A stretch of 64,000 nt of DNA from Streptomyces sp. NBC_00425 (GTDB taxonomy: Bacteria > Actinomycetota > Actinomycetes > Streptomycetales > Streptomycetaceae). Location of the stretch: the NCBI RefSeq assembly GCF_036030735.1, contig NZ_CP107928.1:3968001-4032000 (forward strand). The letters are read 5' to 3'. A model generated the notes under the pieces. That model saw nothing but the letters and a program-made list of their open reading frames with translations, made no database searches and was not told the origin of the DNA. The translations under genes were made by a program, and so were the position numbers. Shown here piece by piece: positions 12,195-44,861 of this stretch. Each line of letters starts with the position of its first letter. Within the stretch, counting starts at the first letter, position 1.

Positions 12195-12206
12195 CTACGC
12201 GCGTAG
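12195..12206. promoter_or_regulatory. Palindromic operator in the purine nucleoside phosphorylase promoter
   Basis: CTACGCGCGTAG, a perfect 12-bp palindrome. A TACGCT -10 box (12219-12224) follows and GTG 12232 lies 7 nt later, so the operator covers about -37 to -26 of a leaderless promoter. The same palindrome recurs in the deoC and add promoters and in variant form at the transporter genes. Confidence 0.8.
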
Positions 12207-12231
12207 GCACAAACCGGCTACGCTCTCCCGC

Positions 12232-13056
12232 GTGAACGCATCTCTTCTCCCGGACGACATCCAGGGCGACCCCCACGCCGCCGCCGACGCCGCCGCCGCG
12301 CGCCTGCGCGAACTGACCGGCGCCGAGACCCACGACGTCGCCCTCGTGATGGGCTCCGGCTGGGCGCCCGCCGTGGACGCCCTGGGCGCCGCCGACGCCG
12401 AGTTCCAGGTCACCGACCTTCCCGGATTCCCGCCGCCCGCGGTGGAGGGCCACGGCGGCAAGGTCCGCTCGTACCGGATCGGCGAGAAGCGGGCGCTGGT
12501 GTTCCTCGGCCGCACCCACTACTACGAGGGCCGCGGCGTCGCCGCCGTCGCCCACGGCGTGCGCACCGCGGTGGCGGCCGGCTGCAAGACGATCGTGCTG
12601 ACCAACGGCTGCGGCGGCCTGCGCGAGGGCATGCGTCCCGGTCAGCCGGTGCTGATCAGCGACCACCTCAACCTGACGGCGACCTCGCCGATCATCGGCG
12701 CCAACTTCGTCGACCTGACGGACCTCTACTCGCCGCGGCTGCGCGCCCTGTGCAAGGAGATCGACGCCACCCTGGAGGAGGGCGTCTACGCCCAGTTCCC
12801 CGGCCCGCACTACGAGACGCCGGCCGAGATCCGCATGGCGCGGACCATCGGCGCTGACCTGGTGGGCATGTCCACCGTGCTGGAGGCCATCGCGGCGCGC
12901 GAGGCGGGCGCCGAGGTGCTCGGCATCTCCCTGGTGACCAACCTCGCCGCCGGCATGACCGGCGAGCCGTTGAACCACGAGGAGGTCCTCCAGGCGGGCC
13001 GGGACAGCGCGACGCGCATGGGGTCGTTGCTGGCCCGGGTGCTCGGCCGGCTCTGA
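12232..13056 (+). CDS. Purine nucleoside phosphorylase
   Basis: 274 aa, trimeric low-molecular-mass PNP type. It splits inosine/guanosine (and deoxy forms) with phosphate to base plus (deoxy)ribose-1-phosphate. Seen: phosphate loop GSGW (41-44), THYYEG (95-100), [10 protein letters not shown] (191-200) with the purine-site Glu, VGMST (211-215) and TNLAAG (236-241) with the base-contacting Asn. An open frame extends upstream to 12124, but it runs through the operator; GTG 12232 sits at the leaderless position. A mutase that can process the sugar phosphate follows. Confidence 0.93.
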
Positions 13057-13063
13057 GCACGCC

Positions 13064-13085
13064 ACCGGGGGCCGCCGCCCCCGGT
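13064..13085 (+). terminator. Hairpin after purine nucleoside phosphorylase
   Basis: A 9-bp perfect stem ACCGGGGGC / GCCCCCGGT with loop CGCC, 8 bp past the stop. It may end transcription or reduce read-through into the mutase gene 127 bp on. Confidence 0.6.
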
Positions 13086-13211
13086 CCCCCAAGGGCCCCG
13101 AGCGGGCCTCGTCCTCGCACTTCCCCCGGAGGGGGACCCGGCCCGGGCCGGGCGGATCCGGCCCGAGCCGGCAGACAACCGGCGTCCACACGCAACCGGA
13201 GGGTGACCCCC

Positions 13212-14843
13212 GTGCACGACGATCTCCTCGCCCGCGCCCAGGCCTGGCTCGCGGAGGATCCCGACCCCGAGACCCGCGCCGAGCTGGCCGAGCTCCTCGA
13301 AGCCGGGGAGGCCACCGAGCTCGCCGACCGCTTCGGCGGCACCCTCCAGTTCGGCACCGCCGGCCTGCGCGGCGAGCTGGGCGCCGGGCCCATGCGGATG
13401 AACCGGTCCGTGGTGATCCGCGCGGCGGCCGGTCTCGCCGCCTACCTCGCGAAGAACGGCCAGGCCGGCGGCACCGTCGTCATCGGCTACGACGCCCGCC
13501 ACAAGTCCGCCGACTTCGCCCGCGACACCGCAGCCGTGATGACCGGCGCGGGATTCCGGGCGGCCGTGCTCCCCCGCCCCCTGCCCACGCCCGTCCTCGC
13601 CTTCGCCATAAGGCGGCTGGGCGCGGTCGCCGGGGTCGAGGTCACCGCCAGCCACAACCCGCCCCGCGACAACGGCTACAAGGTGTACCTGGGCGACGGC
13701 TCACAGATCGTGCCGCCCGCCGACGCGGGGATCGCGGCGGAGATCGACGCGATCGACTCGCTCGACGACGTCCCCCGTCCCGAGGCCGGCTGGGAGACGC
13801 TCGACGACGCCGTCCTCGACGCCTATCTGGCCCGCACGGACGCCGTCCTCGCCCAGGGATCCCCGCGCACGGCCCGCACCGTCTACACGGCGATGCACGG
13901 CGTGGGCAAGGACGTCCTGCTCGCCGCCTTCGCCCGGGCGGGCTTCCCGGAGCCGGTCCTCGTCGCCGAGCAGGCCGAGCCCGACCCGGACTTCCCGACC
14001 GTCGCCTTCCCCAACCCGGAAGAGCCCGGCGCGATGGACCTCGCCTTCGCCGCCGCCCGCGCGGCGGCCCCGGACCTGATCATCGCCAACGACCCGGACG
14101 CCGACCGCTGTGCGGTGGCCGTCCCGCACGACGGCGACTGGCGCATGCTGCGCGGCGACGAGGTCGGCTCCCTGCTGGGCGCCCACCTCGTCCGGCGCGG
14201 CGCGCGGGGCACGTTCGCCGAGTCGATCGTCTCCTCCTCCCTCCTCGGCCGCATCGCCGAGAAGGCGGGCCTGCCCTACGAGGAGACCCTCACCGGCTTC
14301 AAGTGGATCGCCCGCGTGGACGGCCTGCGCTACGGCTACGAGGAGGCCCTCGGCTACTGCGTGGACCCCGAGGGCGTCCGGGACAAGGACGGCATCACCG
14401 CCGCCCTGCTCGTCACGGAACTGGCCTCGGAGCTCAAGGAGCAGGGCCGCACCCTCGTGGACCTGCTGGACGACCTCGCCGTGGAGCACGGTCTGCACGC
14501 CACCGACCAGCTCTCGGTGCGGGTGCAGGACCTCTCCGTCATCGCCCGCGCGATGGACCGGCTGCGTGCGGCGCCCCCTGCCTCCCTCGCGGGCCTGGCC
14601 GTGACCGCGGCGGAGGACCTCACCCGGGGCACGGACCGGCTGCCGCCCACCGACGGCCTGCGCTACACGCTCGACGGCGCCAGGATCGTCGTCCGGCCCA
14701 GCGGCACCGAGCCGAAGCTGAAGTGCTACCTGGAGGTCGTCGTCCCGGTCGCCGTCCACGCCGACCTGCCGGCCGCCCGCAGCAGGGCGACCGCACTCCT
14801 GGCGGACCTCAAGCGGGACCTGTCGGCGGCAGCGGGCATCTGA
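13212..14843 (+). CDS. Phosphohexomutase/phosphopentomutase (PGM2-like, annotated phosphomannomutase)
   Basis: 543 aa. Alpha-D-phosphohexomutase fold: phosphoserine Ser147 in TASHNP, Mg loop DPDADR (294-299), sugar loop GEEALGYC-like (YEEALGY), phosphate loop PSGTEPK near the C-terminus. GTG 13212 has GGAGGG 8 nt upstream and is preferred over GTG 13203. Length and the GTAGLRG motif fit PGM2-like enzymes, some of which use ribose-1-phosphate. Next to PNP and upstream of deoC, a phosphopentomutase role (deoxyribose-1-P to -5-P) is a good inference, since no DeoB is seen here. Confidence 0.88.
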   Translation: MHDDLLARAQAWLAEDPDPETRAELAELLEAGEATELADRFGGTLQFGTAGLRGELGAGPMRMNRSVVIRAAAGLAAYLAKNGQAGGTVVIGYDARHKSADFARDTAAVMTGAGFRAAVLPRPLPTPVLAFAIRRLGAVAGVEVTASHNPPRDNGYKVYLGDGSQIVPPADAGIAAEIDAIDSLDDVPRPEAGWETLDDAVLDAYLARTDAVLAQGSPRTARTVYTAMHGVGKDVLLAAFARAGFPEPVLVAEQAEPDPDFPTVAFPNPEEPGAMDLAFAAARAAAPDLIIANDPDADRCAVAVPHDGDWRMLRGDEVGSLLGAHLVRRGARGTFAESIVSSSLLGRIAEKAGLPYEETLTGFKWIARVDGLRYGYEEALGYCVDPEGVRDKDGITAALLVTELASELKEQGRTLVDLLDDLAVEHGLHATDQLSVRVQDLSVIARAMDRLRAAPPASLAGLAVTAAEDLTRGTDRLPPTDGLRYTLDGARIVVRPSGTEPKLKCYLEVVVPVAVHADLPAARSRATALLADLKRDLSAAAGI

Positions 14844-14937
14844 CGCGCGGACACGCAAGGCGCGGCGGGCGGACGACGGCCGGCGCACCGTCGGCGCCCC
14901 CGCGCGGAAAGCAGCACCGCCGTGCGCCCGGCGGGCC

Positions 14938-16647
14938 TCACCGCACGAGAAGCAGCGCCGCCGCGACCGCCGTCGCCAGGGCCACGCCGAGGGGCCACAG
15001 GGGCCGTCCGCGGCGGTGGCCGGTCGCCGTGACGGTCGGCCGCAGGGCCGGGGTCCGCCACATGGCCGTGATCTCCGCGGCCGTCCGCTCGTACGGATGC
15101 AGCACCCCGAGCCTGTCCTCCAGCCAGGACCAGCGCGGGGAGGACACCCGCCACTCCGCGGACGCGGCAGGGTCGCCGCCGATCCTCAGGCGCGGGCCCT
15201 CGCACTTCACGATCCCGACGTCGTCCCACAGGACGTGCCGGGTCCCCCGCAGCCCGTTGAACCACAGGCCCTCCCGGTCGGCGGTGACGCGCCAGGCGAG
15301 CCGGCGCGGCACCACCAGGCCGGCGAGGACCGTGAGGACGAGGGCGTAGACGTCGCCCCACCAGCCGGACCTCAGGTAGCACGCGAGGAACAGCGCCGTG
15401 AGCGCGACGGCGGTCCGGTCGGCCCACCCGGCGCTCCAGTGCCGCACCCGCTCCGGCGCCTCGTGGTCCCGGTCCCGTTCGACGGCGGCCTCCGCGGCCG
15501 TCGTGCGCAGCCGAGCGTCCCGGGCCGCACGGACGGACTTCCGCTTCCCGGCTCTGTTCCTGCTCCGCAACGCGCCCGGGGTCATCGGCCGCACCGGCCC
15601 GAGGGACACCTCCGTCACCGGCGCCGCGCCGGCCACGGACGCGGCGGCGAGGAAGACGGCCTCGCCCCCGTCGTAGGGGATTCCGTGGAGTACCGCCTCC
15701 CGCAGCGGCCCCGCGCGCTCGGCGTCGATCCGGTCGATCAGCGCGTGCAGCTCGTTGTCGTCACCGTCGCCCTCGTCGCCGTCGTCGCCCTCGTGGCCGT
15801 CTCCCCCGTGGCCCTCGCTCCTGTCCGCGTCGGCCGCCCGGGTGGCCTTGGACCTGTACGTGGAGACCGTGAACAAAGGACGCAGCGCGGCGGGATCGTC
15901 GGCGGCGTAGACCTCGGTGTCGGCGTCGCTGTTGTCACGCACGAGGACCCGCAGCACCGGGACGGGCTCGCGGCGCAGACCGAGGGCGCGGCGGCGGCCC
16001 AACACCCCGGAGAGCATCAGGGTGATGCCCAGTCCGGCGAGACACCAGCCGGCCGCCGGGACCGCCTGCCGGGCGGCGGACCGGTCCCAGAGTCCGGCGG
16101 CGGCGTACAGCGCCCCGCCCGCGACGACCGTGCCGAGCCCGCACCACAGCAGGAACGTCCCGCGTTCCGCCCGCTCGCCTCCGGGCGTCGGCGCCGCGGC
16201 CGTCACGCCTGAGGCGGCCTCCCGTCCCGCCGCCCGCTGCCGCCGGCGCACGGTCAGCCGCAGACAGACGGTTCCCCAGACGCCCGCCAGCACGGCCACC
16301 GCGCCCAGCCGTGCGCCGAGGGCGAGGTCCCCCGCGGTCAGCACCACACCGACGGCGACGGGCCCGAGGACCGCGGCCGCCTCGGGCCGCAGCACCAGCC
16401 ACACGAGGTGCAGGGCGACCAGGGCGGCGGCCCACGCGGGCAGTGCGCCCGACGCGCTCAGCAGACCGGCGACGAGGACGGCCAGGAGCGGCAGCGCCAC
16501 GAAGGCCGGCACAGGGGGCCGCACCGGCGCCCAGCGCGGCGGCAGCGCCCGCGTCCAGTGCGCCGCCCGCTCGCCGTCCCAGGGCGGACAGCCCTCGGGT
16601 ATCGCCGCCTCCGGCAGCCGCAGCACCGCGCCGACTTCCGTACTCAT
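14938..16647 (-). CDS. Multi-span membrane protein with PH-like domain
   Basis: 569 aa from ATG 16647 (ribosome site GGGAGAG). Hydrophobic spans cluster at about 48-120 and 170-230, with another pair after residue 395 and one at the C-terminus. Between spans lies an acidic Asp/Gly-rich stretch (EGHGGDGHEGDDGDEGDGDD). A domain after the last paired spans (LAWRVTADREGLWFNGLRGT... WDDVGIVKCEG) resembles bacterial PH domains. The function is unknown; the next gene on the same strand also carries a PH-like domain, so the two may be related. Confidence 0.75.
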   Translation of the reverse strand: MSTEVGAVLRLPEAAIPEGCPPWDGERAAHWTRALPPRWAPVRPPVPAFVALPLLAVLVAGLLSASGALPAWAAALVALHLVWLVLRPEAAAVLGPVAVGVVLTAGDLALGARLGAVAVLAGVWGTVCLRLTVRRRQRAAGREAASGVTAAAPTPGGERAERGTFLLWCGLGTVVAGGALYAAAGLWDRSAARQAVPAAGWCLAGLGITLMLSGVLGRRRALGLRREPVPVLRVLVRDNSDADTEVYAADDPAALRPLFTVSTYRSKATRAADADRSEGHGGDGHEGDDGDEGDGDDNELHALIDRIDAERAGPLREAVLHGIPYDGGEAVFLAAASVAGAAPVTEVSLGPVRPMTPGALRSRNRAGKRKSVRAARDARLRTTAAEAAVERDRDHEAPERVRHWSAGWADRTAVALTALFLACYLRSGWWGDVYALVLTVLAGLVVPRRLAWRVTADREGLWFNGLRGTRHVLWDDVGIVKCEGPRLRIGGDPAASAEWRVSSPRWSWLEDRLGVLHPYERTAAEITAMWRTPALRPTVTATGHRRGRPLWPLGVALATAVAAALLLVR

Positions 16648-17258
16648 CGCCCACTCTCCCGACTCACCGGATCGCCCTGCCCCGACCACCGCGCCGGCGG
16701 ACGAACGCCGACGCCGCGGATCCCTGCACCGTGGACACCCGCCCACGCCGTGGGCGCACACCGGACCACCGCACCCCGGACCCACACCCCACGACCGGAG
16801 CCCGAAACCGAGGGGTGGCCCGAACATGCCCACCGGGGCGCAGCAGCGAGGGGTGCGCCGCCCTCGGGCCGCGCCCGGCGCCCATGACCACGCCCGAGCG
16901 CCTCGCCCGATGCCACGCCGACGGCACGGACCGCGGCCCGACGGCTGACCGCGGGCCGGGTCCCGGCCCGCCACCCCGACTGCCGCAGGGCCACACCCCG
17001 CGCCCCTCACCCCGCGTCCACCGCCACCGGGCACCTGCCCCGACCCGCAGGCCGGGCACCCGCCGGCCCGACCCGGATGCCGGCACGACACCGGCCCCGA
17101 CCCAGGACTCCCGGCACGCACTCTTCGGATCCCAGCAGACAGACCCGGCCTCGGTGCCGGTCACCGCCGCACCCACGACACGCCGAACCCGCGCCACTGC
17201 GAACCCTCGACACTGCGAACCCTCGACACGCCGCCTCCGCGGCGGCGCCGGCCCGGGC
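16648..17258. other. 611-bp spacer without a supported gene; T-poor on the + strand
   Basis: This stretch is very rich in C and A and poor in T on the + strand. Open frames exist but lack codon bias, ribosome sites or recognisable motifs. A 16-bp direct repeat, CACTGCGAACCCTCGA, occurs at 17195-17210 and 17211-17226. A small GCCGC/GCGGC stem at about 17230-17245 may end the 17259 gene. Confidence 0.5.
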
Positions 17259-18110
17259 TCAACCCACGGCCAGCAGAATCCCCAGCACCACGGCTCCCGC
17301 CGCGACCGGGCCCAGGATCTCCCAGGCCCAGCGCACGGACACCTCGCCCTGCGCGCTCTCCTCCTGCTGCCGCGCCTCCCACACCTCGCGCAGCTCGTCC
17401 ACGTCCCGGTCGCCGCGGGCGCGCAGAGGAACGTCCGCGGCAGCCGTGCCGGTCCGGCCCGGTCGGCCGCCCTTGCCCCGGGCCGCCCGCTTGCGTTCCC
17501 GCAGCGAGACGGGGATGGACCACAGCTGGAACTTCTTCCCCGACACGGCGATCGCCTCGTTGGAGTAGCCCGACCGCAGCGTGGCGACCTGCCCCCAGGG
17601 CAGCACGATCAACCGGAACGGGTTGCGCACCCGCAGCCGGTCCGGGCCCGCGTACACGGCGGGCCGCAGTGTGAAGGCGATGATCAGCGGCACGACGATG
17701 ATCAGCGTCGCGAGCGCCAGCCAGGGCGTGCGCCCCTCACCCGCGACGATCGCGTCGACGCCGAGCCAGGCGGCCAGCCCGAGCAGCGCAGCACCGGTGG
17801 CGACGCCCGCGGACGAGCGGTAGACCCGGTCCTTCGTCACGGGCTCCGGGGGCTCCTGGAACCCCGAAGCCGCCGCAGCACCCGAGTCCGCCGGAGAATC
17901 CGAGGAAGCCGCAGAACCCGAGTCCGCCGCAGAACCCGAGGCGACCGGAGAATCCGAAGCGGCCGGGGAGCCCGAGTGGGCCGGGGACTCCGGGGAGCCG
18001 GAGGGCCCGGAAGAGCCCGGCCCGGGGGTCGCCGCGGGCCCTTCGGGCTCCGGGGCGCCCGTAGGCTTCGCGGGCCGTGGCTCTGGTGACTGGTCTTCCG
18101 GGCTCGTCAT
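17259..18110 (-). CDS. PH-domain membrane protein with low-complexity N-terminus
   Basis: 283 aa. Residues 1-90 are disordered, with repeated Ser-Gly-Ser/Asp-Ser-Pro units. Two spans follow (about 105-122 and 127-145), then a PH-like domain (VYAGPDRLRVRNPFRLIVLP, then WGQVATLRSGYSNEAIAVSG) typical of actinobacterial bPH6-type proteins, a basic linker and a C-terminal span. The acidic Ser-rich head should face the cytosol. It is divergent from deoC, with 117 bp between the starts. Confidence 0.8.
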   Translation of the reverse strand: MTSPEDQSPEPRPAKPTGAPEPEGPAATPGPGSSGPSGSPESPAHSGSPAASDSPVASGSAADSGSAASSDSPADSGAAAASGFQEPPEPVTKDRVYRSSAGVATGAALLGLAAWLGVDAIVAGEGRTPWLALATLIIVVPLIIAFTLRPAVYAGPDRLRVRNPFRLIVLPWGQVATLRSGYSNEAIAVSGKKFQLWSIPVSLRERKRAARGKGGRPGRTGTAAADVPLRARGDRDVDELREVWEARQQEESAQGEVSVRWAWEILGPVAAGAVVLGILLAVG

Positions 18111-18202
18111 GGCCCCGATTGTGCCCGAAGCCCGCGATCCGCTCATACGCGGTGCCCCGGCGTGCGATGAGCGCCCGAACGGCTTCCGGGGGTGTACACC
18201 CG

Positions 18203-18214
18203 CTACGCGCGTAG
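18203..18214. promoter_or_regulatory. Palindromic operator in the deoC promoter
   Basis: CTACGCGCGTAG, identical to the PNP site. It ends 1 bp before the TATGCT -10 box (18216-18221), and GTG 18228 is 6 nt after that box. The site lies in the -35/-10 spacer (about -25 to -14), where a bound protein would block RNA polymerase. Confidence 0.85.
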
Positions 18215-18227
18215 ATATGCTCGTCTG

Positions 18228-19196
18228 GTGACCATGCCCACCAATGCACCCACCGCAGCCCCGGCGCTCACCGACGTGACCGCGTCCGACGCCGCGTTGC
18301 GCCGCTTCCTCCACGGGCTGCCCGGCGTCGACGCGGTCGGCCTGGAGGCGCGCGCCGCCACGCTCGGCACCCGTTCCATCAAGACGACCGCCAAGGCGTA
18401 CGCCATCGACCTCGCCATCTCGATGGTCGACCTGACGACGCTGGAAGGCGCGGACACCCCGGGCAAGGTCCGGGCGCTCGGCGCGAAGGCGGTCCGTCCC
18501 GACCCGACCGACCGGACGGCCCCCGCCACGGCCGCGGTCTGCGTCTATCCCGACATGGTGGCCGTCGCCAAGGAGGCCGTCGCGGGCTCCGCCGTGAAGG
18601 TCGCCTCGGTCGCCACCGCCTTCCCGGCCGGCCGCGCCGCCCTCGACGTGAAGCTGGCCGACGTCCGTGACGCGGTCGCCGCCGGCGCCGACGAGGTGGA
18701 CATGGTCATCGACCGCGGCGCGTTCCTGGCGGGCCGGTACATGAAGGTCTACGACGAGATCGTCGCCGTCCGCGAGACCTGTGGGACGGCCGCCCGTCTC
18801 AAGGTCATCTTCGAGACCGGCGAGCTGTCGACGTACGACAACATCCGGCGGGCGAGCTGGCTCGGCATGCTGGCCGGGGCGGACTTCATCAAGACGTCCA
18901 CCGGCAAGGTCGCCGTCAACGCCACCCCCGCCAACACCCTGCTCATGCTGGAAGCCGTCCGCGACTTCCGCGCCCAGACCGGCGTCCAGGTCGGCGTGAA
19001 GCCGGCCGGCGGCATCCGCACCAGCAAGGACGCGATCAAGTTCCTGGTCCTGGTCAACGAGACCGCGGGCGAGGACTGGCTGGACAACCACTGGTTCCGC
19101 TTCGGCGCCTCCTCGCTCCTCAACGATCTGCTGATGCAGCGCCAGAAGCTGGCCACCGGCCGCTACTCCGGCCCCGACTACGTGACGGTGGACTGA
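18228..19196 (+). CDS. deoC: Deoxyribose-phosphate aldolase
   Basis: 322 aa. Cleaves 2-deoxyribose-5-phosphate to acetaldehyde and glyceraldehyde-3-phosphate. TIM barrel with Schiff-base Lys222 in DFIKTSTGK and proton-relay Lys258 in GVKPAGGIR. GTG 18228 is taken as start because it is at the leaderless position; ATG 18234 is the alternative. It is the first gene of deoC-ALDH-ALDH', with a 6-bp gap to the next gene. The acetaldehyde it releases is a plausible substrate for the aldehyde dehydrogenase behind it. Confidence 0.95.
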   Translation: MTMPTNAPTAAPALTDVTASDAALRRFLHGLPGVDAVGLEARAATLGTRSIKTTAKAYAIDLAISMVDLTTLEGADTPGKVRALGAKAVRPDPTDRTAPATAAVCVYPDMVAVAKEAVAGSAVKVASVATAFPAGRAALDVKLADVRDAVAAGADEVDMVIDRGAFLAGRYMKVYDEIVAVRETCGTAARLKVIFETGELSTYDNIRRASWLGMLAGADFIKTSTGKVAVNATPANTLLMLEAVRDFRAQTGVQVGVKPAGGIRTSKDAIKFLVLVNETAGEDWLDNHWFRFGASSLLNDLLMQRQKLATGRYSGPDYVTVD

Positions 19197-19202
19197 GACC
19201 CC

Positions 19203-20654
19203 ATGACCATGGAAAAGCTGACTTCCGCATTCGAGTACGCACCGGCGCCCGAGTCCCGCTCGGTCGTCGACATCGCCCCCTCCTACGGCCTGTTCATCGA
19301 CGGCGAGTTCACCGACGCCGCCGACGGCAAGGTGTTCAAGACCGTCTCGCCGTCCTCCGAGGAGGTCCTCTCCGAGATCGCCCAGGCGAGCGAGGCGGAC
19401 GTGGACCGCGCCGTGAAGGCCGCCCGCAGGGCCTTCGGCGCCTGGTCGGCGCTCCCCGGCGCCGAGCGGGCTAAGTACCTGTTCCGCATCGCCCGGATCA
19501 TCCAGGAGCGCAGCCGCGAACTGGCCGTCCTGGAGACGCTGGACAACGGCAAGCCGATCCGGGAGACGCGTGACGCCGACCTCCCGCTGGTCGCCGCGCA
19601 CTTCTTCTACTACGCGGGCTGGGCCGACAAGCTCGACCACGCCGGGTTCGGGTCCTCGCCGAAGCCGCTGGGCGTGGCCGGCCAGGTCATCCCGTGGAAC
19701 TTCCCCCTGCTGATGCTGGCGTGGAAGATCGCCCCGGCGCTCGCCACCGGCAACACGGTCGTCCTGAAGCCGGCCGAGACGACGCCGCTGTCCGCCCTGT
19801 TCTTCGCGGACGTCTGCCGTCAGGCGGGTCTGCCCAGGGGCGTCGTCAACATCCTGCCGGGGTACGGCGACGCGGGTGCGGCGCTCGTCGCCCACCCCGA
19901 CGTGAACAAGGTGGCCTTCACCGGTTCCACGGCCGTCGGCAAGGCCATCGCGAAGACGGTCGCGGGGACCCGCAAGAAGCTCACGCTGGAGCTGGGCGGC
20001 AAGGGCGCCAACATCGTCTTCGACGACGCGCCGATCGACCAGGCCGTCGAGGGCATCGTCAACGGCATCTTCTTCAACCAGGGCCAGGTCTGCTGCGCGG
20101 GCTCCCGTCTCCTCGTCCAGGAGTCGATCCAGGAGGAGCTGCTGGAGTCCCTCAAGCGCCGGCTGTCGACGCTGCGCCTCGGCGATCCGCTGGACAAGAA
20201 CACCGACATCGGCGCGATCAACTCCGAGGAGCAGCTGACCCGTATCACCTCGCTCGTCGAGCAGGGCGAGGCCGAGGGCGCGGAGCGCTGGTCCCCGGCC
20301 TGTGAACTGCCGGACGCGGGCTACTGGTTCGCGCCGACGCTCTTCACGAACGTCACCCAGGCCCACACCGTCGCCCGGGACGAGATCTTCGGCCCCGTCC
20401 TGTCGGTCCTCACCTTCCGCACTCCGGACGAGGCCGTCGCCAAGGCCAACAACACGCCGTACGGCCTGTCGGCGGGCGTCTGGACGGAGAAGGGCTCCCG
20501 CATCCTCGCGGTGGCGAACAAGCTCCGGGCCGGCGTCGTCTGGTCCAACACGTTCAACAAGTTCGACCCGACCTCGCCGTTCGGCGGGTACAAGGAGTCG
20601 GGCTTCGGCCGCGAGGGCGGCCGCCACGGCCTGGAGGCGTACCTCGATGTCTGA
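19203..20654 (+). CDS. Aldehyde dehydrogenase, full-length catalytic partner
   Basis: 483 aa NAD(P)-dependent aldehyde dehydrogenase. All catalytic residues are present: Asn166 in PWNFP, general base Glu263 in LELGGKGAN, nucleophile Cys297 in GQVCC, and EIFGPV. Cofactor motif GSTAVG is at 241-246. It overlaps the following gene by 8 bp (ATGTCTGA), implying translational coupling. Position after deoC suggests acetaldehyde oxidation in deoxynucleoside catabolism (inference). Confidence 0.94.
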   Translation: MTMEKLTSAFEYAPAPESRSVVDIAPSYGLFIDGEFTDAADGKVFKTVSPSSEEVLSEIAQASEADVDRAVKAARRAFGAWSALPGAERAKYLFRIARIIQERSRELAVLETLDNGKPIRETRDADLPLVAAHFFYYAGWADKLDHAGFGSSPKPLGVAGQVIPWNFPLLMLAWKIAPALATGNTVVLKPAETTPLSALFFADVCRQAGLPRGVVNILPGYGDAGAALVAHPDVNKVAFTGSTAVGKAIAKTVAGTRKKLTLELGGKGANIVFDDAPIDQAVEGIVNGIFFNQGQVCCAGSRLLVQESIQEELLESLKRRLSTLRLGDPLDKNTDIGAINSEEQLTRITSLVEQGEAEGAERWSPACELPDAGYWFAPTLFTNVTQAHTVARDEIFGPVLSVLTFRTPDEAVAKANNTPYGLSAGVWTEKGSRILAVANKLRAGVVWSNTFNKFDPTSPFGGYKESGFGREGGRHGLEAYLDV

Positions 20655-21632: not shown

Positions 21633-21638
21633 GAGATC

Positions 21639-29163: not shown

Positions 29164-30288
29164 TTACTGGAACAGCCATTCGGATTTCAGCTCGGCATAA
29201 CCGGGCTTGATCACGTCACTGATCATGGCGAGTCGTTCATCGAAAGGAATGAATGCTGACTTCATAGCATTGACCGAGAACCACTGCAGATCGTCGAGCG
29301 TGTAACCGAATGCGTCGACCAGGTGCTCGAATTCCCGGCTCATGCTGGTGCCGGACATCAGCCGGTTGTCCGTGTTGACGGTGGTCCGGAAGTGGAGCCG
29401 GCGCAGCAGCCCGATGGGGTGTTCGGCGTAGGAGGCGGCCGCTCCGGTCTGCAGGTTGGAGCTGGGGCACATCTCCAGCGGGACGCGCTTGTCGCGGACG
29501 TAGGAGGCGAGCCGCCCGAGCTTCACCGAGCCGTCGTCCGCGACCTCGATGTCGTCGATGATCCGCACGCCGTGCCCGAGCCGGTCGGCGCCGCACCACT
29601 GCAGCGCCTGCCAGATGGACGGCAGCCCGAAGGCCTCGCCGGCGTGGATGGTGAAGTGGTTGTTCTCGCGCTTGAGGTACTCGAAGGCGTCGAGGTGCCG
29701 GGTGGGCGGGTAGCCGGCCTCGGCGCCCGCGATGTCGAAGCCGACGACGCCCAGATCCCGGTAGCGGTTGGCGAGTTCGGCGATCTCCAGCGCGCGGGCC
29801 GCGTGCCGCATGGCGGTCAGCAGGGCGCCGACGCGGATGCGGTGGCCGTTGCCGCGGGCCGCCCGCTCCCCTTCCCGGAAGCCCTCGTTGACGGCCTCGA
29901 CGACCTGCTCGAGGGTCAGTCCGCCGTCGAGGTGCTGCTCGGGCGCGTACCGCACCTCGGCGTAGACGACGCCGTCCTCGGCGAGGTCCTCGGCGCACTC
30001 GCGGGCGACCCGCACCAGGGCCTCGCGGGTCTGCATCACGCCGACCGTGTGCGAGAAGGTCTCCAGGTACCGCTCGAGGGAGCCGGAGTCGGCGGCCTCC
30101 CGGAACCAGAGGCCGAGCTTGTCGGGATCCGTCTCGGGAAGGCGGGAGTACCCGGTCTCCCGGGCGAGGTCGACGATCGTGCCGGGCCGCAGCCCGCCGT
30201 CGAGGTGGTCGTGCAGCAGAACCTTGGGCGCCCGCCGGATCTGGTCCGGGCTCGGGGTGATGCCCGTCTGGATGCTCTGGCTCGTCAT
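29164..30288 (-). CDS. add: Adenosine deaminase
   Basis: 374 aa. Converts adenosine/deoxyadenosine to inosine/deoxyinosine, feeding PNP. Zinc ligands His26 and His28 (HDHLDG), the catalytic Glu in HAGE, GHGVR and the C-terminal metal Asp in NTDN are all present. ATG 30288 follows TAGAGT by 6 nt with no ribosome site, so the mRNA is leaderless. The promoter carries the shared nucleoside palindrome. Confidence 0.95.
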
Positions 30289-30304: not shown

Positions 30305-30316
30305 CTACGCGCGTAG
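30305..30316. promoter_or_regulatory. Palindromic operator in the add promoter
   Basis: CTACGCGCGTAG, the third perfect copy. The add -10 box (TAGAGT on the minus strand) is at 30295-30300, so the site covers about -17 to -28. Confidence 0.82.
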
Positions 30317-37756: not shown

Positions 37757-39049
37757 TCAGGCGATGCGCTCCAGCACGACCGGGGACGCCGTGAACGGGG
37801 TGCCCGCGGCCGCGATGTCGTAGGAGCCGTCCACCGCGTCGAGCGCGTACGCGAAGCGCTCCGGAGTGTCCGTGTGGAGCGTCAGCAGGGGCTGGCCCTC
37901 GCGCACGGTGTCGCCGGGCTTGGCGTGCAGCTCCACTCCGGCGCCCGCCTGCACCGGGTCCTCCTTGCGGGCGCGGCCCGCGCCGAGGCGCCAGGCGGCG
38001 ATGCCGATGTCGTAGGCGTCGAGACGGGTCAGGACGCCCGAGGCGCCCGCCTTCACCACGTGCTGTTCCTTCGCGATGGGCAGCGCGGCGTCCGGGTCGC
38101 CGCCCTGGGCCGCGATCATGCGCCGCCAGACGTCCATGGCCGAGCCGTCTGCCAGCGCCTTCGCCGGGTCGGCGTCCTTGACGCCGGCCGCGTCGAGCAT
38201 CTCGCGGGCCAGGGCGATGGTCAGCTCCACGACGTCCGCCGGGCCGCCGCCGGCCAGTACCTCCACCGACTCGCGGACCTCCAGGGCGTTGCCCGCGGTG
38301 AGGCCGAGCGGGGTGGACATGTCCGTCAGCAGGGCGACCGTCTTCACGCCGTGGTCGGTGCCGAGGCCCACCATCGTCGAGGCGAGCTCACGGGCGTCCT
38401 CGACGGTCTTCATGAAGGCGCCGGTGCCGACCTTCACGTCCAGGACCAGCGAGCCGGTGCCCTCGGCGATCTTCTTGGACATGATGGACGAGGCGATCAG
38501 CGGGATGGCCTCGACGGTGCCGGTCACGTCCCGCAGCGCGTACAGCTTCTTGTCGGCCGGGGCGAGACCGTCGCCCGCGGCGCAGATCACGGCGCCGGTG
38601 CCGTCCAGCACGGACAGCATCTCCTCGTTGGAGAGCAGTGCGCGCCAGCCCGGGATCGACTCCAGCTTGTCCAGCGTGCCGCCGGTGTGGCCGAGGCCGC
38701 GGCCGGAGAGCTGCGGGACCGCCGCGCCGCAGGCCGCCACGAGGGGGGCCAGGGGCAGCGTGATCTTGTCGCCGACGCCGCCCGTGGAGTGCTTGTCGGC
38801 GGTCGGGCGGGACAGGGCGGAGAAGTCCATGCGTTCGCCGGAGGCGATCATCGCGGCAGTCCAGCGGGCGATCTCCCGGCGGTTCATGCCGTTGAGCAGG
38901 ATGGCCATGTTGAGGGCGGCCATCTGGTAGTCGGCGACCTCACCGCCGGTGTACGCGTCGATGACCCAGTCGATCTGCTCGTCGCTGAGCTCACCGCGGT
39001 CCCGCTTGGTGCGGATGACGGAGACGGCATCCATCGACAATTGCGTCAT
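37757..39049 (-). CDS. deoA: Thymidine phosphorylase
   Basis: 430 aa. Splits thymidine (and possibly uridine/deoxyuridine) with phosphate. Seen: DKHSTGGVGDK (phosphate/pyrimidine site), KLESIPGW, SIMSKKIAEGT, LDVKVGTGAFM and the C-terminal GDTVREGQPLLTLHTD domain. ATG 39049 has an AAGGAAAG site. Last gene of the transporter operon; a 100-bp gap with GGTGGTGCA repeats separates it from cdd. The product deoxyribose-1-P leads to the mutase and DeoC encoded earlier. Confidence 0.95.
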   Translation of the reverse strand: MTQLSMDAVSVIRTKRDRGELSDEQIDWVIDAYTGGEVADYQMAALNMAILLNGMNRREIARWTAAMIASGERMDFSALSRPTADKHSTGGVGDKITLPLAPLVAACGAAVPQLSGRGLGHTGGTLDKLESIPGWRALLSNEEMLSVLDGTGAVICAAGDGLAPADKKLYALRDVTGTVEAIPLIASSIMSKKIAEGTGSLVLDVKVGTGAFMKTVEDARELASTMVGLGTDHGVKTVALLTDMSTPLGLTAGNALEVRESVEVLAGGGPADVVELTIALAREMLDAAGVKDADPAKALADGSAMDVWRRMIAAQGGDPDAALPIAKEQHVVKAGASGVLTRLDAYDIGIAAWRLGAGRARKEDPVQAGAGVELHAKPGDTVREGQPLLTLHTDTPERFAYALDAVDGSYDIAAAGTPFTASPVVLERIA

Positions 39050-39149
39050 GGCTTTCCTTCCGGTGGTGCAACGGTGGTGCACCGTGGTGCGACAAGACGG
39101 GGAGAAAGTGCGCGGCCCCTCTGCGGTTGTCAGAGGGGCCGCGCGGGAG

Positions 39150-39548
39150 TCACCTGGTGAGGTGGTCCGGGCCGAAGGCCTGCGGAAGCATCTCGGCGAG
39201 CGGCAGGATTCCCGCCGGCGTCTCCAGCAGGAGACCGGGTCCGCCGAACTCGTACAGCAGCTGGCGGCAGCGGCCGCACGGGACGAGGACCTCGCCGCGG
39301 CCGTCCACGCAGGTGAAGTGCGTGAGCCGGCCGCCGCCGGTGTTCTGCAGCTGCGAGACCAGCCCGCACTCGGCGCACAGGCCGAGCCCGTAGGAGGCGT
39401 TCTCGACGTTGCAGCCGGACACGATCCGGCCGTCGTCGACGAGCGCCGCCACACCGACCGGGTAGCCGGAGTAGGGGGCGTACGCGTGGGACATGGCCTC
39501 GCGGGCCACCTCGCGCAGCGCCTCCCAGTCGACGGCGGGCGCTGTCAC
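39150..39548 (-). CDS. cdd: Cytidine deaminase
   Basis: 132 aa, tetrameric small CDA type. Zinc ligands Cys58 with catalytic Glu60 (CAEC), Cys91 and Cys94 (PCGRC); substrate motif GCNVENASYG (45-54). GTG start overlaps the permease stop (GTGA). Deaminates cytidine/deoxycytidine to uridine forms for thymidine phosphorylase or uridine kinase. Confidence 0.95.
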   Translation of the reverse strand: MTAPAVDWEALREVAREAMSHAYAPYSGYPVGVAALVDDGRIVSGCNVENASYGLGLCAECGLVSQLQNTGGGRLTHFTCVDGRGEVLVPCGRCRQLLYEFGGPGLLLETPAGILPLAEMLPQAFGPDHLTR

Positions 39549-40828
39549 TTGCCCTGGCCCTTGCGGTAGCGCATGCCGTCGGCCCGTGGCATGCGCAGCC
39601 GCTGCGCGGACAGCGACAGCACCAGCAGGGTGACGACGTACGGGGTGGCGCCCACGAAGTCGCTCGGGACCTCGTCGGTGAACAGGTACCAGACCAGGAC
39701 GAGCGCGGCCACCATGAGGCTGATCCCGGCCTGCCAGTGCGCCTTGCGGTACAGCTTCCAGCCGGCCAGGCCCGCGAGGAGCACGACCAGCAGGAGCAGC
39801 AGCGCGTGGACGGTCTCGCCGCCGTTGCGCAGCTGCAGCGCGTCGGAGTAGCCGAACAGGCCCGCGCCCATGGCCAGACCGCCGGGACGCCAGTTGCCGA
39901 AGATCATCGCCGCGAGGCCGATGTAGCCTCGGCCGCCGGTCTGGCCCTCGAGGTAGGTGTGCGAGGTGACCAGGGCGAGGAAGGCGCCGCCGAGACCGGC
40001 GAGGCCGCCGGAGACGGCCACGGCCGCGTACTTGTACTTGTAGACGTTGACGCCGAGGGACTCCGCGGCGATCGGGTTCTCACCGCAGGAGCGCAGCCGG
40101 AGGCCGAACGGGGTGCGCCACAGCAGCCACCAGCTGCCGACGAAGAGCAGGAAGGCGAGGAGCGTCACCACGGACAGGTCGGTGACCAGACCGCCGAGGA
40201 TGCCCGCGATGTCGGAGAGCAGGAACCAGTGGTGCTTCTCGACGGACTGGAGGGCCTCCGAGAGGCCGGGCACGTCGATGTGGGGCAGGGACTCCACGGG
40301 CGGGGACTGCTTGGGGTTGCCGCCCGCGTCGGCCGGCTTGCCCTCCGAGAAGAACAGCTTCGCGAGGTACTGGGTGATGCCGAGCGCCAGCAGGTTGACC
40401 GCGACGCCGGAGACGATGTGGTCGACGCCGAAGGTGACGGTCGCGACGGCGTGCACCAGGCCGCCGAGGACGCCGAAGCCGACGCCGCACAGCAGACCGA
40501 GCCAGGGGTTGGACTGCCAGCCGATCCAGCCGGCGCCGAAGGTGCCGAGGATCATCATGCCCTCGAGGCCGATGTTGACCACACCGGACCGCTCGGACCA
40601 CAGGCCGGCCAGACCGGCGAGGCCGATGGGCACGGCGAGGCCGAGCGCGGCCGAGACCTGGCCCTCGGAGGTGAGCTGGTTGGCGCCGGTGATGATGCGG
40701 ACCACGGCGACGAGCACCAGCGCGGCGGCGATGATCGTGAGGATCCGGCCGACCGAGCGGCCCGACCGGCCGCCGGTGTCCGCCTTGGGCGCCGCGGGGG
40801 GCGGCGTGTCGGTCATCGTGGCAGTCAT
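39545..40828 (-). CDS. Nucleoside ABC transporter permease 2
   Basis: 427 aa, BPD-transp-2 family. Long cytosolic head, about nine to ten spans, with GLWSERSGVVNIGLEGMMIL and the ATPase-coupling loop RLRSCGENPIAAESLGVNVY. Pairs with the preceding permease in the RnsBCD/NupNOPQ-like nucleoside importer type. Overlaps both neighbours (TGATG upstream, GTGA downstream). Confidence 0.92.
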   Translation of the reverse strand: MTATMTDTPPPAAPKADTGGRSGRSVGRILTIIAAALVLVAVVRIITGANQLTSEGQVSAALGLAVPIGLAGLAGLWSERSGVVNIGLEGMMILGTFGAGWIGWQSNPWLGLLCGVGFGVLGGLVHAVATVTFGVDHIVSGVAVNLLALGITQYLAKLFFSEGKPADAGGNPKQSPPVESLPHIDVPGLSEALQSVEKHHWFLLSDIAGILGGLVTDLSVVTLLAFLLFVGSWWLLWRTPFGLRLRSCGENPIAAESLGVNVYKYKYAAVAVSGGLAGLGGAFLALVTSHTYLEGQTGGRGYIGLAAMIFGNWRPGGLAMGAGLFGYSDALQLRNGGETVHALLLLLVVLLAGLAGWKLYRKAHWQAGISLMVAALVLVWYLFTDEVPSDFVGATPYVVTLLVLSLSAQRLRMPRADGMRYRKGQGK

Positions 40829-41955
40829 CACGCCACCTCCTGCTTCTGGGTCGGGGCGGCGGCCTGGGCGGCGAGCTCGGCGCCGACCCGCTGCTGCTGG
40901 CGCTTGAGGCCGTAACGCCGGACGAGCTCGTAGGCGATGACGACGCACAGCACGATGACGCCCTGGATGACGCCGAGGATTTCCTTGTCGTACCCCTCGA
41001 ACTCGAGGTGGTTGGTCGTGCGCTCCAGGAAGCCCCAGAGCAGTGCGCCGAGCGCGATCCCGACCGGGTTGTTGCGGCCGAGCAGGGCGATGGCGATGCC
41101 GGTGAAGCCGATGCCCGACGGGAAGTCGTTGCTGAACTGGTGGCTGTCGTTGAGCAGGGTCGGCATGCCGATCAGACCGGCCACGGCACCCGAGATGACC
41201 ATGCTGGTGGCGACCATCTTCTTGACGGAGACACCGCTCGCGGTGGCCGCGCTCTCGGACTGGCCGACGGTGCGCAGGTCGAAGCCGAACCGGGTGCGGC
41301 CGAGCACGAACCAGTAGGCGACGCCGACGAGGATCGCGACGACGATGAAGCCCCACAGCACACCGGCCGCGCCGGTGTCGATGCTGAAGAAGTACGACGA
41401 CTTCGGCAGCGGGTCGGTCGAGACGACCGTGCCGCCGCTCTGCAGCTCTGCGAGCTTCCCCGGCTGCAGCAGGTAGGCGATGATCGCGGTGGCGATCGAG
41501 TTCAGCATGATCGTCGAGATGACCTCGCTGACGCCTCGGGTCACCTTGAGGATGCCGGCGATGGCCGCCCACAGGGCGCCGGTCGCCATGGCGCACAGGA
41601 TGATCAGCGGGATCGCGATCCAGCCGGGCACGGTCAGCGCGCCGCCGAGGACGGCGGCGACGAACGCAGCGAGCCGGTACTGGCCGTCGACGCCGATGTT
41701 GAACAGGTTCATGCGGAAGCCGATGGCCACCGCGACGCCCGCCAGGTAGTACGTCGTCGCCTTGTTGAGGATGTAGACCTGGCTGTCGCTCGCGGAGCCG
41801 TAGGTCAGCATGTCGCTGAAGGCCGCGCCCGGGTTCTTGCCGGTGGCGAGGATGACCAGGGCGGTGACGACGAGCGCGGTGACGATCGCCAGCAGCGGGG
41901 CCGCGACCCCGAGGAGCAGCCGCTCCTTGTCGATCCTTGCGGTCAGCTTTTTCAT
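40828..41955 (-). CDS. Nucleoside ABC transporter permease 1
   Basis: 375 aa. BPD-transp-2 family with around eight to ten spans; FRMNLFNIGVDGQYRLAAFV and the coupling loop FDLRTVGQSESAATASGVSV are typical. ATG 41955 overlaps the ATPase stop by 4 bp. With the second permease it forms the membrane channel of the importer. Confidence 0.92.
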   Translation of the reverse strand: MKKLTARIDKERLLLGVAAPLLAIVTALVVTALVILATGKNPGAAFSDMLTYGSASDSQVYILNKATTYYLAGVAVAIGFRMNLFNIGVDGQYRLAAFVAAVLGGALTVPGWIAIPLIILCAMATGALWAAIAGILKVTRGVSEVISTIMLNSIATAIIAYLLQPGKLAELQSGGTVVSTDPLPKSSYFFSIDTGAAGVLWGFIVVAILVGVAYWFVLGRTRFGFDLRTVGQSESAATASGVSVKKMVATSMVISGAVAGLIGMPTLLNDSHQFSNDFPSGIGFTGIAIALLGRNNPVGIALGALLWGFLERTTNHLEFEGYDKEILGVIQGVIVLCVVIAYELVRRYGLKRQQQRVGAELAAQAAAPTQKQEVA

Positions 41956-43511
41956 CGGGCGTCGTCCTCTGCGTGCTCCAGGTGGCCGGTGGCCGCACCC
42001 GTCATGGCGGAGCCCAGCTCCTCGGGGGTGATCGTGGCGGGATCGGCGTCGGCGACCAGCCGGCCGCGGTACATGACCCGCAGGGTGTCGGAGAGCCCGA
42101 TGAGCTCGTCCAGGTCGGCGGAGATCAGCAGCACGGCCAGGCCCTCGCGGCGCGCCTCGCGGATGTGGTCCCAGATCGCGGCCTGCGCGCCGACGTCCAC
42201 ACCGCGGGTGGGGTGGGCGGCGATGAGGAGCTTGGGCGCGTGGCTCATCTCGCGGCCGACGATCAGCTTCTGCTGGTTGCCGCCGGACAGCGAGGCGGCG
42301 GTCACGTCGATGCCGGGCGTGCGGACGTCGTACGCCTGGACGATGCGCTCGGTGTCGGTGCGGGCGGCCTTGATGTCGAGCAGCTGGCCGCGCGAGTTGG
42401 GCCGCTCGGTGACATGGCCGAGGATGCGGTTCTCCCACAGCGGCGCCTCGAGGAGCAGGCCGTGGCGGTGGCGGTCCTCGGGGATGTAGCCGACGCCGGC
42501 CTCGCGACGGTGGCGGGTGGGCACGTGGGAGATGTCGGCGCCGTCGAGGGCGATGACGCCGGCGTCCGGAGCGCGGATGCCCATGATCGCCTCGACCAGC
42601 TCGGACTGGCCGTTGCCCTCCACGCCGGCGATGCCGAGGACCTCGCCCTTGTGGATGGTGAAGGAGATGTCGTCGAGGATGATCCGCTCGACGCCGTCGA
42701 GGTCCGTCTGCGTCAGGTGCAGCCCGTCCAGCTTCAGCAGCGGGACGTCCGTGACCGTGGACTCCTCGGTCTCCGGCGTGGGCAGTTCGCTGCCGACCAT
42801 CAGCTCGGCGAGCTGCTTGGTGGTGGTGTTCTCCGGCTCGACCGTGCCCACCGTGGTGCCGCGCCGGATGACGGTGATCTCGTCGGCGACGGACAGCACC
42901 TCTCCCAGCTTGTGGGAGATGAAGATGACGGTGAGGCCCTCGGCCTTCAGCTCGCGCAGGTTGTCGAAGAGGGCGTCGACCTCCTGCGGCACCAGGACGG
43001 CCGTGGGCTCGTCGAGGATGAGGGTCTTGGCGCCGCGGTAGAGGACCTTGAGGATCTCCACGCGCTGGCGGTCGGCGACGCCGAGCTCTTCCAGGAGGAC
43101 GTCGGGCCGGACGTTCAGCCCGTACGCGTCGGAGATCTCCTTGATCTTCGTCCGGGCCTTGCCGCCGATGCCGTGGAGCTTCTCCGCTCCGAGGACGACG
43201 TTCTCCAGGACGGTGAGGTTGTCGGCGAGCATGAAGTGCTGGTGCACCATGCCGATGCCGCGCTCGATGGCGTCGGCGGGGTTGCTGAACGTGACCTGGT
43301 CGCCGTTCACGGTGATGGTGCCCTCGTCCGGCTGCTGCATGCCGTAGAGGATCTTCATCAGGGTGGACTTGCCGGCGCCGTTCTCACCGCACAGGGCGTG
43401 GACGGTGCCGGTGCGAACCGTGATGTCGATGTCGCGGTTGGCGACGACGCCGGGGAATCGCTTGGTGATGCCGCGCAGTTCGACGGCAGCGGGAGGGCTG
43501 GACGCGTTGAT
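41952..43511 (-). CDS. Nucleoside ABC transporter ATPase (two-domain), ATC start codon
   Basis: 519 aa if begun at ATC 43511. Two ABC domains, as in sugar/nucleoside importers. Domain 1 has Walker A GENGAGKST, VADRQRVEILK signature and LILDEPTA; domain 2 has GVEGNGQSE, SGGNQQKLIVG and LIAAHPTRG. No in-frame ATG, GTG, TTG or CTG precedes the first Walker A back to the in-frame TAG at the operator. ATC is placed 6 nt after GGAGAG, and the residues after it (NASSPPA) look like a normal N-terminus. The first in-frame ATG (43358) would delete Walker A. Confidence 0.9.
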   Translation of the reverse strand: MNASSPPAAVELRGITKRFPGVVANRDIDITVRTGTVHALCGENGAGKSTLMKILYGMQQPDEGTITVNGDQVTFSNPADAIERGIGMVHQHFMLADNLTVLENVVLGAEKLHGIGGKARTKIKEISDAYGLNVRPDVLLEELGVADRQRVEILKVLYRGAKTLILDEPTAVLVPQEVDALFDNLRELKAEGLTVIFISHKLGEVLSVADEITVIRRGTTVGTVEPENTTTKQLAELMVGSELPTPETEESTVTDVPLLKLDGLHLTQTDLDGVERIILDDISFTIHKGEVLGIAGVEGNGQSELVEAIMGIRAPDAGVIALDGADISHVPTRHRREAGVGYIPEDRHRHGLLLEAPLWENRILGHVTERPNSRGQLLDIKAARTDTERIVQAYDVRTPGIDVTAASLSGGNQQKLIVGREMSHAPKLLIAAHPTRGVDVGAQAAIWDHIREARREGLAVLLISADLDELIGLSDTLRVMYRGRLVADADPATITPEELGSAMTGAATGHLEHAEDDAR

Positions 43512-43586: not shown

Positions 43587-43598
43587 CTACACGCGTAG
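43587..43598. promoter_or_regulatory. Variant palindromic operator ahead of the nucleoside transporter operon
   Basis: CTACACGCGTAG, one change from the perfect site. A TAGCGT -10 box on the minus strand (43565-43570) puts the site near -29 to -40 of the operon promoter. Confidence 0.75.
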
Positions 43599-43617
43599 AG
43601 TTGACACATTGTTATGG

Positions 43618-43653
43618 CTCGACGAGGGGGTTGTCGAACACCCCCTCGTCGAG
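43618..43653 (-). terminator. Terminator of bmpA, 13-bp perfect stem
   Basis: CTCGACGAGGGGG (43618-43630) and CCCCCTCGTCGAG (43641-43653) with a 10-nt loop, 26 bp after the bmpA stop. It separates strong bmpA transcription from the transporter operon, which has its own promoter. Confidence 0.88.
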
Positions 43654-43678
43654 CCGGGGTCAGGCGGCGACCATCAGG

Positions 43679-44743
43679 TCACGGGGTGGTCTTGACCTTG
43701 ATGGAACCGTCGACGATCTTCTGCTTCGCCGCGTCCAGCTGGGTCTTGATGTCGTCGATGAAGCCACCGCTGGTGGCGAGCGAGACACCGTTCTTGGCGA
43801 GCGAGTAGTTGTTGACGCCCGTCAGCGGCTTGCCGTCGTGGACGGACTTGACGAAGTCGTACACACCGACGTCGACGTTCTTGACCATCGAGGTCAGGAT
43901 CGAGGCCTTGTACTTGGCCAGACCCGGGATGTTGTACTGGTCGGAGTCCACGCCGATGGCCCAGGCGCCCTTGACGCCGTTGACGGCCTCGATCGCGCCG
44001 TTGCCGGAGGAGCCGGCCGCCGAGTAGATGACGTCGGCGCCGTTGTCGAGCATGCCCGACGCGGCGGCCTTGCCCTTGTCGGGGCTGGCGAACCCGGAGA
44101 AGTCCGAGCCGTGGCTCAGGTACTGGGTGTCGACCTTGACGGCCGGCTTGGTGTCGTGGACGCCCTGGGTGAAGCCCGCCTCGAACTTCTTGATCAGCGG
44201 AACGTCGACGCCGCCGATGAAGCCGACGTGGTTCTTCTTGGTCTTCAGCGCCGCGGCGACACCGGCCAGGTACGAGCCCTGCTCCTCGGTGAAGGTGATG
44301 CTGTCGACGTTCTTCGCTTCGACGACCGAGTCGACGATGCCGAAGCTGACCTTCGGGTACTTCGCGGCGACCTTGGTCATCGAGGCGGCGTAGGAGAAGC
44401 CGACGCCGACGATGGGGTTGTAGCCGGCGTCCGCCAGGTCGGTCAGACGCTGCTCGCGGTCGGCCTCGGTGTCGGAGGTCTTGGCGGTCAGCTCCTTGAT
44501 CGAGCCGCCGAACTCGGCCTTGGCCTTGTCGGCGCCGCGCGCGGCGGAGTCGTTGAAGGAACGGTCACCACGACCGCCCACGTCGAAGGCGAGACCGATC
44601 TTGACGCCCGAACCGCCGCCGGAGGAGGCGGAGGACGAGCTGCTGCTGTCGTTCTCGGAGGAGGTGCTGCCACATGCAGTGGCAGTCAGTGCGAGAGCTG
44701 CGGTTGCGATACACGCAGCGGAAAGCTTGGCTACCCGGCGCAC
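43679..44743 (-). CDS. bmpA: BmpA-family nucleoside-binding lipoprotein
   Basis: 354 aa. Lipoprotein signal peptide with Cys24 (TATAC); a Ser/Gly linker follows. The BMP domain shows VGGRGDRSFNDSA (ligand-binding loop), GVGFSYAASM, FTEEQGSYLAGV, FIGGVDVPLIKKFEAGFTQG and SGNGAIEAV. This family binds nucleosides (Treponema PnrA, knowledge). GTG start with AAGGAG at 7 nt. It supplies the extracellular receptor for the ABC operon encoded just downstream. Confidence 0.94.
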   Translation of the reverse strand: MRRVAKLSAACIATAALALTATACGSTSSENDSSSSSSASSGGGSGVKIGLAFDVGGRGDRSFNDSAARGADKAKAEFGGSIKELTAKTSDTEADREQRLTDLADAGYNPIVGVGFSYAASMTKVAAKYPKVSFGIVDSVVEAKNVDSITFTEEQGSYLAGVAAALKTKKNHVGFIGGVDVPLIKKFEAGFTQGVHDTKPAVKVDTQYLSHGSDFSGFASPDKGKAAASGMLDNGADVIYSAAGSSGNGAIEAVNGVKGAWAIGVDSDQYNIPGLAKYKASILTSMVKNVDVGVYDFVKSVHDGKPLTGVNNYSLAKNGVSLATSGGFIDDIKTQLDAAKQKIVDGSIKVKTTP

Positions 44744-44849
44744 GGGAAGGCTCCTTCACCTGACCTGAGCGCCTTGTCGGCGCTTGATGTGAGCACCATG
44801 CCAGTGCCCGGGCCTGGACGCCCCGATCGGCGTTGGCTTCGCGGCATCG

Positions 44850-44861
44850 TAACGCGCGTAG
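44850..44861. promoter_or_regulatory. Variant palindromic operator in the bmpA promoter
   Basis: TAACGCGCGTAG, two changes at one end of the palindrome. It overlaps a TACGAT -10 box on the minus strand (44846-44851). Unlike the PNP, deoC and add transcripts, bmpA would keep a leader of about 95 nt. Confidence 0.72.

Follow-up and report, generated by a model that had tools for sequence, protein, structure and literature searches.

The window, meaning the whole stretch of 64,000 nucleotides from Streptomyces sp. NBC_00425 analyzed here, carries genes for nucleoside uptake and breakdown whose names in the initial annotation hold by Pfam domains (PNP_UDP_1, DeoC, A_deaminase, ABC_tran, and Bmp). 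The forward strand encodes a purine nucleoside phosphorylase family protein (PNP; 12232..13056, PNP_UDP_1, 154 bits), followed downstream by a phosphohexomutase/phosphopentomutase-type protein (13203..14843, PGM_PMM I-IV), as well as the deoxyribose-phosphate aldolase deoC (18228..19196, DeoC domain), with which the aldehyde dehydrogenase gene at 19203..20654 (forward strand, Aldedh) is probably co-transcribed, judging by the spacing. The longest open frame of PNP starts at 12124 and spans the operator described below, the GTG start at 12232 being a reading of the letters; likewise, the longest deoC frame runs from 18192, and the start at 18228 was assigned by reading. The reverse strand carries the adenosine deaminase gene add (29164..30288, A_deaminase, 355 bits), the ATPase gene of a nucleoside uptake ABC operon, referred to as nup ABC (41952..43358, two stretches of ABC_tran, start provisional), an open frame with an ABC permease domain (39545..41998, BPD_transp_2 at residues 450-741, the true start being internal to the frame), a deoA-like pyrimidine/thymidine phosphorylase gene that is probably a member of the same operon (37757..39454, Glycos_transf_3 and PYNP_C), and bmpA, encoding a nucleoside-binding lipoprotein of the PnrA/Bmp family (43679..44743, Bmp, 203 bits). 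A DeoR-family regulator is encoded at 8628..9593 on the reverse strand (DeoRC, HTH_DeoR), and a LysR protein at 31232-32221.

A mismatch scan of the window returned the five palindromic sites of the initial annotation at the same positions and with the same mismatch numbers. The sequence CTACGCGCGTAG was perfect at 12195..12206, 25 bp before the GTG taken as the PNP start, at 18203..18214, 13 bp before the assigned deoC start, and at 30305..30316, 16 bp from the add start codon. The site of the nup ABC operon at 43587..43598 reads CTACACGCGTAG with one mismatch (CTACGCGTGTAG on the gene strand), and that of bmpA at 44850..44861 reads TAACGCGCGTAG with two (CTACGCGCGTTA on the gene strand). In agreement with the earlier reading of the letters, all of them appear to overlap or adjoin -35/-10 elements. 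Additional two-mismatch matches at 2280 and 46873, which had not been listed before, were taken as background. The only other perfect 12-bp palindrome occurring three times in the window was GACGCCGGCGTC.

With up to two mismatches, seven matches were found in the window versus 4.40 expected, and seven were reached by 16 of 100 shuffles, so that this count is near chance and by itself no evidence. It is the one point in favor of taking the palindrome for a chance repeat without regulatory meaning, a reading that is contradicted by the rarity of perfect copies and by the genus-wide conservation at the same promoters, and that we consider extremely improbable. In the whole genome of 9,805,310 bases, CTACGCGCGTAG occurred three times, all within 18.1 kb at window positions 12195-30316. 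The pattern CTACNNNNGTAG occurred 12 times versus 56 times for the reversed pattern; since the former count may be reduced by coding frames avoiding TAG, conservation was given more weight. The perfect 12-mer was present three to six times in each of 25 same-genus genomes, our own included, with a total of 95 versus 20 for the reversed pattern, and 16 more distant genomes gave a total of three versus 10. Matches to CTACNCGCGTAG were obtained in all 132 same-genus genomes searched, and outside the genus, within the same order, eight of 15 genomes had one to three matches, which is the background level.

The conservation extended to individual promoters. Before deoC, all 80 named Streptomyces loci compared had a perfect site in the same place; they were the 80 most similar among 565 to a query translated through the site, which makes them somewhat biased. 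The add site was found in 14/14 regions, a count that is not independent because these regions were fetched via this very site. Among the same 14, the nup ABC site was present with no or one mismatch in 10 of the 11 regions having the gene, and bmpA was preceded by the same imperfect variant CTACGCGCGTTA in 11 of 11, six of which had kept it even though the bmpA protein was 52-56% identical. The initial annotation had called for a scan of the whole genome and of related Streptomyces, and had named chance frequency and lack of conservation at orthologous promoters as grounds against a regulon. The motif proved rare genome-wide and conserved genus-wide, and the rarity of the perfect copies together with the deoC, nup ABC, bmpA, and purSQL promoters contradicts both grounds.

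A number of matches were set aside. Perfect copies in two genomes (G029 and G030) were judged to be chance because they lie inside a frame reading like IMP dehydrogenase, and one in G025 because no promoter was recognized there. On inspection, the one-mismatch sites L004, L006, L008, L009, L011, L012, L014, L200-L202, and L205-L207 of our own genome were coding or stood before genes without an evident link. The site at 5278092 (L054) fell in none of the frames kept by the gene caller, and another (L059) lay inside an open frame. There may be true regulon members among the one-mismatch sites set aside.

Outside the window, the site was found before the de novo purine operon purS-purQ-purL (purSQL), where it lies about 14 bp before a TAGTCT element that reads like a -10 box; with up to two mismatches, it was present in 16/16 same-genus genomes and in 0/9 others. 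Three paralogues with a 5'-nucleotidase C-terminal domain were also preceded by sites in our own genome, and 24 of 28 5'-nucleotidase loci carried one (≤2 mismatches), the four misses (L104, L105, L106, and L111) being partial matches for which the upstream stretch may not be the promoter. Two sites lie upstream of a gene for an Endonuclease I (Endonuclease_1 domain; L319). Thirteen of 25 genomes, every one from the same genus, had this protein. Here 12 of 14 loci had a site with up to two mismatches and six had both; the two loci without one were the copy in G010 and, in G009, a partial match. In our own genome, to which these three observations are confined, two sites precede a gene for an ExeM/NucH-like nuclease (L204; no Pfam match, and 118 bits where the cut-off is 300), and one each precedes an acid phosphatase gene (L324) and the gene of a purine permease, a Xan_ur_permease protein (L199). 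Several of the products have a signal-like N-terminal sequence and are thus presumably secreted. The genome-wide rarity and same-promoter conservation support the shared nucleoside regulon that had been suggested. Its scope is wider than nucleosides alone, extending to nucleases and nucleotidases of secreted type and to an operon for de novo purine synthesis. As far as sequence comparison can tell, it is nearly certain that a single Streptomyces regulon covers nucleic-acid digestion, nucleoside uptake and breakdown, and purine synthesis.

Some individual loci showed further sites. In G007, a perfect copy runs across the start of a second adenosine-deaminase-like gene (L043 at 5026). In G011, two sites 23 bases apart (L051 at 5027 and 5050) precede a secreted-looking protein without a Pfam match, which may be a species-specific regulon member. 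Two genomes have CTACGGGCGTAG immediately upstream of a nitrilase-family gene (L005, G000 2386980; L052 at 8603, G024), and the best NCBIfam model of the encoded protein, N-carbamoylputrescine amidase, stayed below its cut-off; this is perhaps a weak regulon member or the site of another regulator.

A symmetrized matrix was built from 15 own-genome sites that had been picked partly by likeness to the 12-mer, and its positions C4, C6, G7, and G9 were invariant. C6 and G7 were present in 15 of 15 matrix sites, giving an even palindrome with a central CG as is characteristic of LacI-family operators. The half-site is CTACGC, with C at -6 and TA at -5/-4. The initial annotation had favored a LacI-type repressor while pointing out that the window holds no LacI gene, and indeed all 43 LacI genes of the genome lie outside it. 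Our survey of possible regulators covered these 43 LacI proteins as well as the DeoR protein.

The DeoR-family protein at 8628-9593, which had been named as another candidate, could act as a repressor sensing a phosphosugar. Its gene lies 2.6 kb from the PNP site and is found almost genus-wide, in 24 of 25 same-genus genomes with the only absence in a genome that is 79% complete, while the matches listed elsewhere reach at most 44% identity. Its DNA-binding domain exists in two versions in 24, and that of the LacI protein introduced below in three versions in 24; near-invariance of the recognition domain in both therefore does not tell the two apart. However, the strongly conserved promoter of the DeoR gene lacks a CTACGCG-like element, with a best matrix score of -4.4 and no copy in the 24 promoters read, which lowers its candidacy, and DeoR operators are not known to resemble this palindrome. 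DeoR proteins need not self-regulate, but on balance we consider this protein an improbable reader of the operator. The conserved stretch upstream of its gene (9594-9720) probably holds another regulatory site.

The LacI protein that fitted the operator best, L239, is encoded outside the window (G000 contig 1, 5259279-5260307) and exceeds the Pfam cut-offs for the LacI HTH (PF00356, 51.9 bits) and a periplasmic-binding-type domain (PF13377, 108 bits). Its neighbor carries a GlnR_1st domain, and by synteny L239 is the putative counterpart of S. coelicolor SCO4158. A 2012 study by Meng et al. reportedly links SCO4158, as a LacI regulator, to an antibiotic pigment, going by its title. According to PMC9739823, SCO4158 lies downstream of glnR/SCO4159 in S. 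coelicolor, is tied to phosphate limitation, and is suspected to control glnR, and a table in PMC5839063 gives an ArgR site for it. In the literature on SCO4158, as far as it was accessible to us, neither an operator nor nucleoside targets were found.

L239 was present in 25/25 same-genus genomes with 83-100% identity (in two pieces in G010), and outside the genus the best identity among the matches listed was 40%. Twelve genomes had its gene and a site-bearing 5'-nucleotidase gene on one contig, and in 11 of them the two are no more than about 21 kb apart. Both CGCGTAGACT and the half-site CGCGTAG were kept in all 24 L239 promoters read, G010 being left out. Within its own promoter, the best matrix score was 7.8 versus at least 15.1 for the regulon sites used in the matrix; a score of 7.8 was reached by 7 of 988 background stretches (0.7%). 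No LacI gene was found to carry a clean operator for itself, and among the 43 own-genome LacI promoters that of L239 ranks second after that of L222 (10.1).

The recognition residues were considered in light of the LacI code of Camas et al. (PMC2978694), in which residue 20 goes with base 6 (Arg pairing with G) and residues 15-16 go with bases 5-4. Residues 15, 16, and 20 were read in all 43 LacI domains, fifteen of them by eye, and central-CG palindromes were sought before all 43 LacI genes, filtering out purely GC-rich ones. Residue 20 was Arg in 27 proteins and another residue in 16, five of which had Tyr. Among genes with perfect-core palindromes, those encoding Arg20 (L211, L213, L216, L217, L224, L233, and L235) had G at -6, those encoding Tyr20 (L215 and L219) had C, and the one encoding Leu20 (L234) had T. 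The Tyr20 gene L227 had C at -6 in one half only, and the Arg20 genes L210, L218, and L232 had weak palindromes with C at -6. The 7-versus-2 split between Arg20/G and Tyr20/C has a chance probability of 1 in 36, with some of the genes being near-duplicates. A pairing of Tyr20 with C at -6, as seen in L215, L219, and half of L227, is a possible extension of the published code. If it held more widely, operator prediction could reach LacI proteins beyond the Arg20 group, which has been studied well. The -5/-4 bases were GA for L215, L219, and one half of L227, TA for L209 (Val-Ala), GA for L249 and L250 (Ile-Ala), and AG for L224 (Arg-Ala); Ala16 does not fix bases 5-4.

L239 is the only one of the 43 proteins that combines Tyr20 with Thr-Ala at positions 15-16. 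Given the C at -6 of the operator, the Tyr20 pairing, and the unique Thr-Ala, it is the best fit, other fits being conceivable. The initial guess of a LacI-type repressor therefore agrees with the invariant central CG and with the recognition residues of a protein encoded beyond the window, and among the candidates surveyed it is somewhat more probable than not that this SCO4158-type protein reads the operator. A real regulon might also have another reader, either a further LacI protein without Arg20 or a member of a different family. The weak sign of autoregulation in the L239 promoter, the better-scoring element before L222, the focus of the survey on the LacI family, and the fifteen other LacI proteins lacking Arg20, including L223 (Arg-Ala, Tyr20) and L237 (Thr-Ala, Asn20), all speak for this, but the Tyr20 and Thr-Ala pair is unique to L239 among the LacI proteins of this genome, and L223, the best-fitting alternative, would be expected from L224 to favor AG at -5/-4. 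Accordingly, we regard a different reader as possible but rather unlikely.

The best explanation, to which we assign a probability of roughly 0.55, is that CTACGCGCGTAG is the operator of a regulon for nucleic-acid scavenging and purine supply that is bound by the SCO4158-type repressor. The sites, their rarity, their conservation, and the genes behind them were read from the sequence, and from these we infer the regulator, the repression, and the ligand with its sign. A dimer of L239 would bind CTACGCGCGTAG with one CTACGC half-site per monomer, and its hinge helices would open the central CG. Since promoter elements are overlapped or adjoined by the sites, transcription is expected to be blocked by binding. 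The effector and its sign are guesses; relief of repression in purine shortage is favored because purSQL is a regulon member, and the repressor would then leave the operator, as PurR does. Nucleosides would be released from nucleic acid by nucleases, 5'-nucleotidases, and phosphatase, BmpA and the ABC transporter would import them, adenosine deaminase, PNP, and the deoA-like enzyme would free the base, DeoC would drain the sugar, and purSQL would raise de novo purine synthesis. The same LacI regulator could alternatively respond, like CytR or RbsR, to a nucleoside, ribose, or deoxyribose derivative as the inducer, with purSQL as a side member, an account that overlaps the preferred one and differs solely in the ligand. 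Inducer logic is favored by the catabolic route that the regulon members in the window make up, and the closest NCBIfam model of L239 is RbsR (189 bits versus 183 for PurR), but the purSQL site in 16/16 same-genus genomes is easier to reconcile with purine shortage than with induction by a substrate, and we consider this ligand rather unlikely.

Going one step further with the SCO4158-type repressor, we tentatively suggest, at somewhat less than even odds, that the LacI protein beside glnR is a genus-wide switch joining nucleic-acid digestion, salvage, and purine synthesis by way of the Tyr20-C(-6) extension of the code. If true, nutrient release from dying hyphae would be tied to purine supply, and development and antibiotics would be reached via GTP and (p)ppGpp; post-lysis recycling would be connected with purine-based signals and with stress from phosphate and nitrogen. 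The search found no description of a Streptomyces regulator in which purine supply and nucleic-acid reuse come together. With a conserved operator and a named candidate protein, the model is testable in any laboratory Streptomyces.

Among the open-access titles and abstracts listed, none described this operator or its regulon, and an earlier prediction may be contained in the supplement on LacI regulons of PMC4052901. The 12-mer string itself occurs in two of the papers listed, which by their titles deal with DNA structure and GapR. XdhR is a TetR-family protein with xdhABC as its target and a regulon different from this one; it is a regulator of purine salvage in Streptomyces, as described in the accessible part of the review PMC6627660, where the word PurR does not occur. 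L239 scored below the NCBIfam cut-offs of PurR, CytR, UriR, and RbsR, with the best scores for RbsR (189 bits, cut-off 382; 178 bits, cut-off 531) and PurR (183 bits, cut-off 501). UriR of Corynebacterium is a LacI-type uridine regulator in Actinobacteria (PMC4052901, in part), and its model gave 120 bits at a cut-off of 550. According to excerpts of PMC3454398, the LacI-family regulator CytR of gamma-proteobacteria likewise controls nucleoside uptake and breakdown. Its model gave 168 bits at a cut-off of 436. To our knowledge, CytR regulons do not include purine synthesis. The gamma-proteobacterial PurR resembles the present system in belonging to the LacI family, in its even palindrome with a central CG, and in controlling de novo purine genes (PMC4052901, in part). 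Unlike the PurR regulon, the one described here comprises nucleases, nucleotidases, and nucleoside catabolism, with purSQL as the sole purine operon seen and CTACGC as the half-site. For the regulon of a LacI-type operator, its gene set and the recognition residue of the candidate are both unusual.
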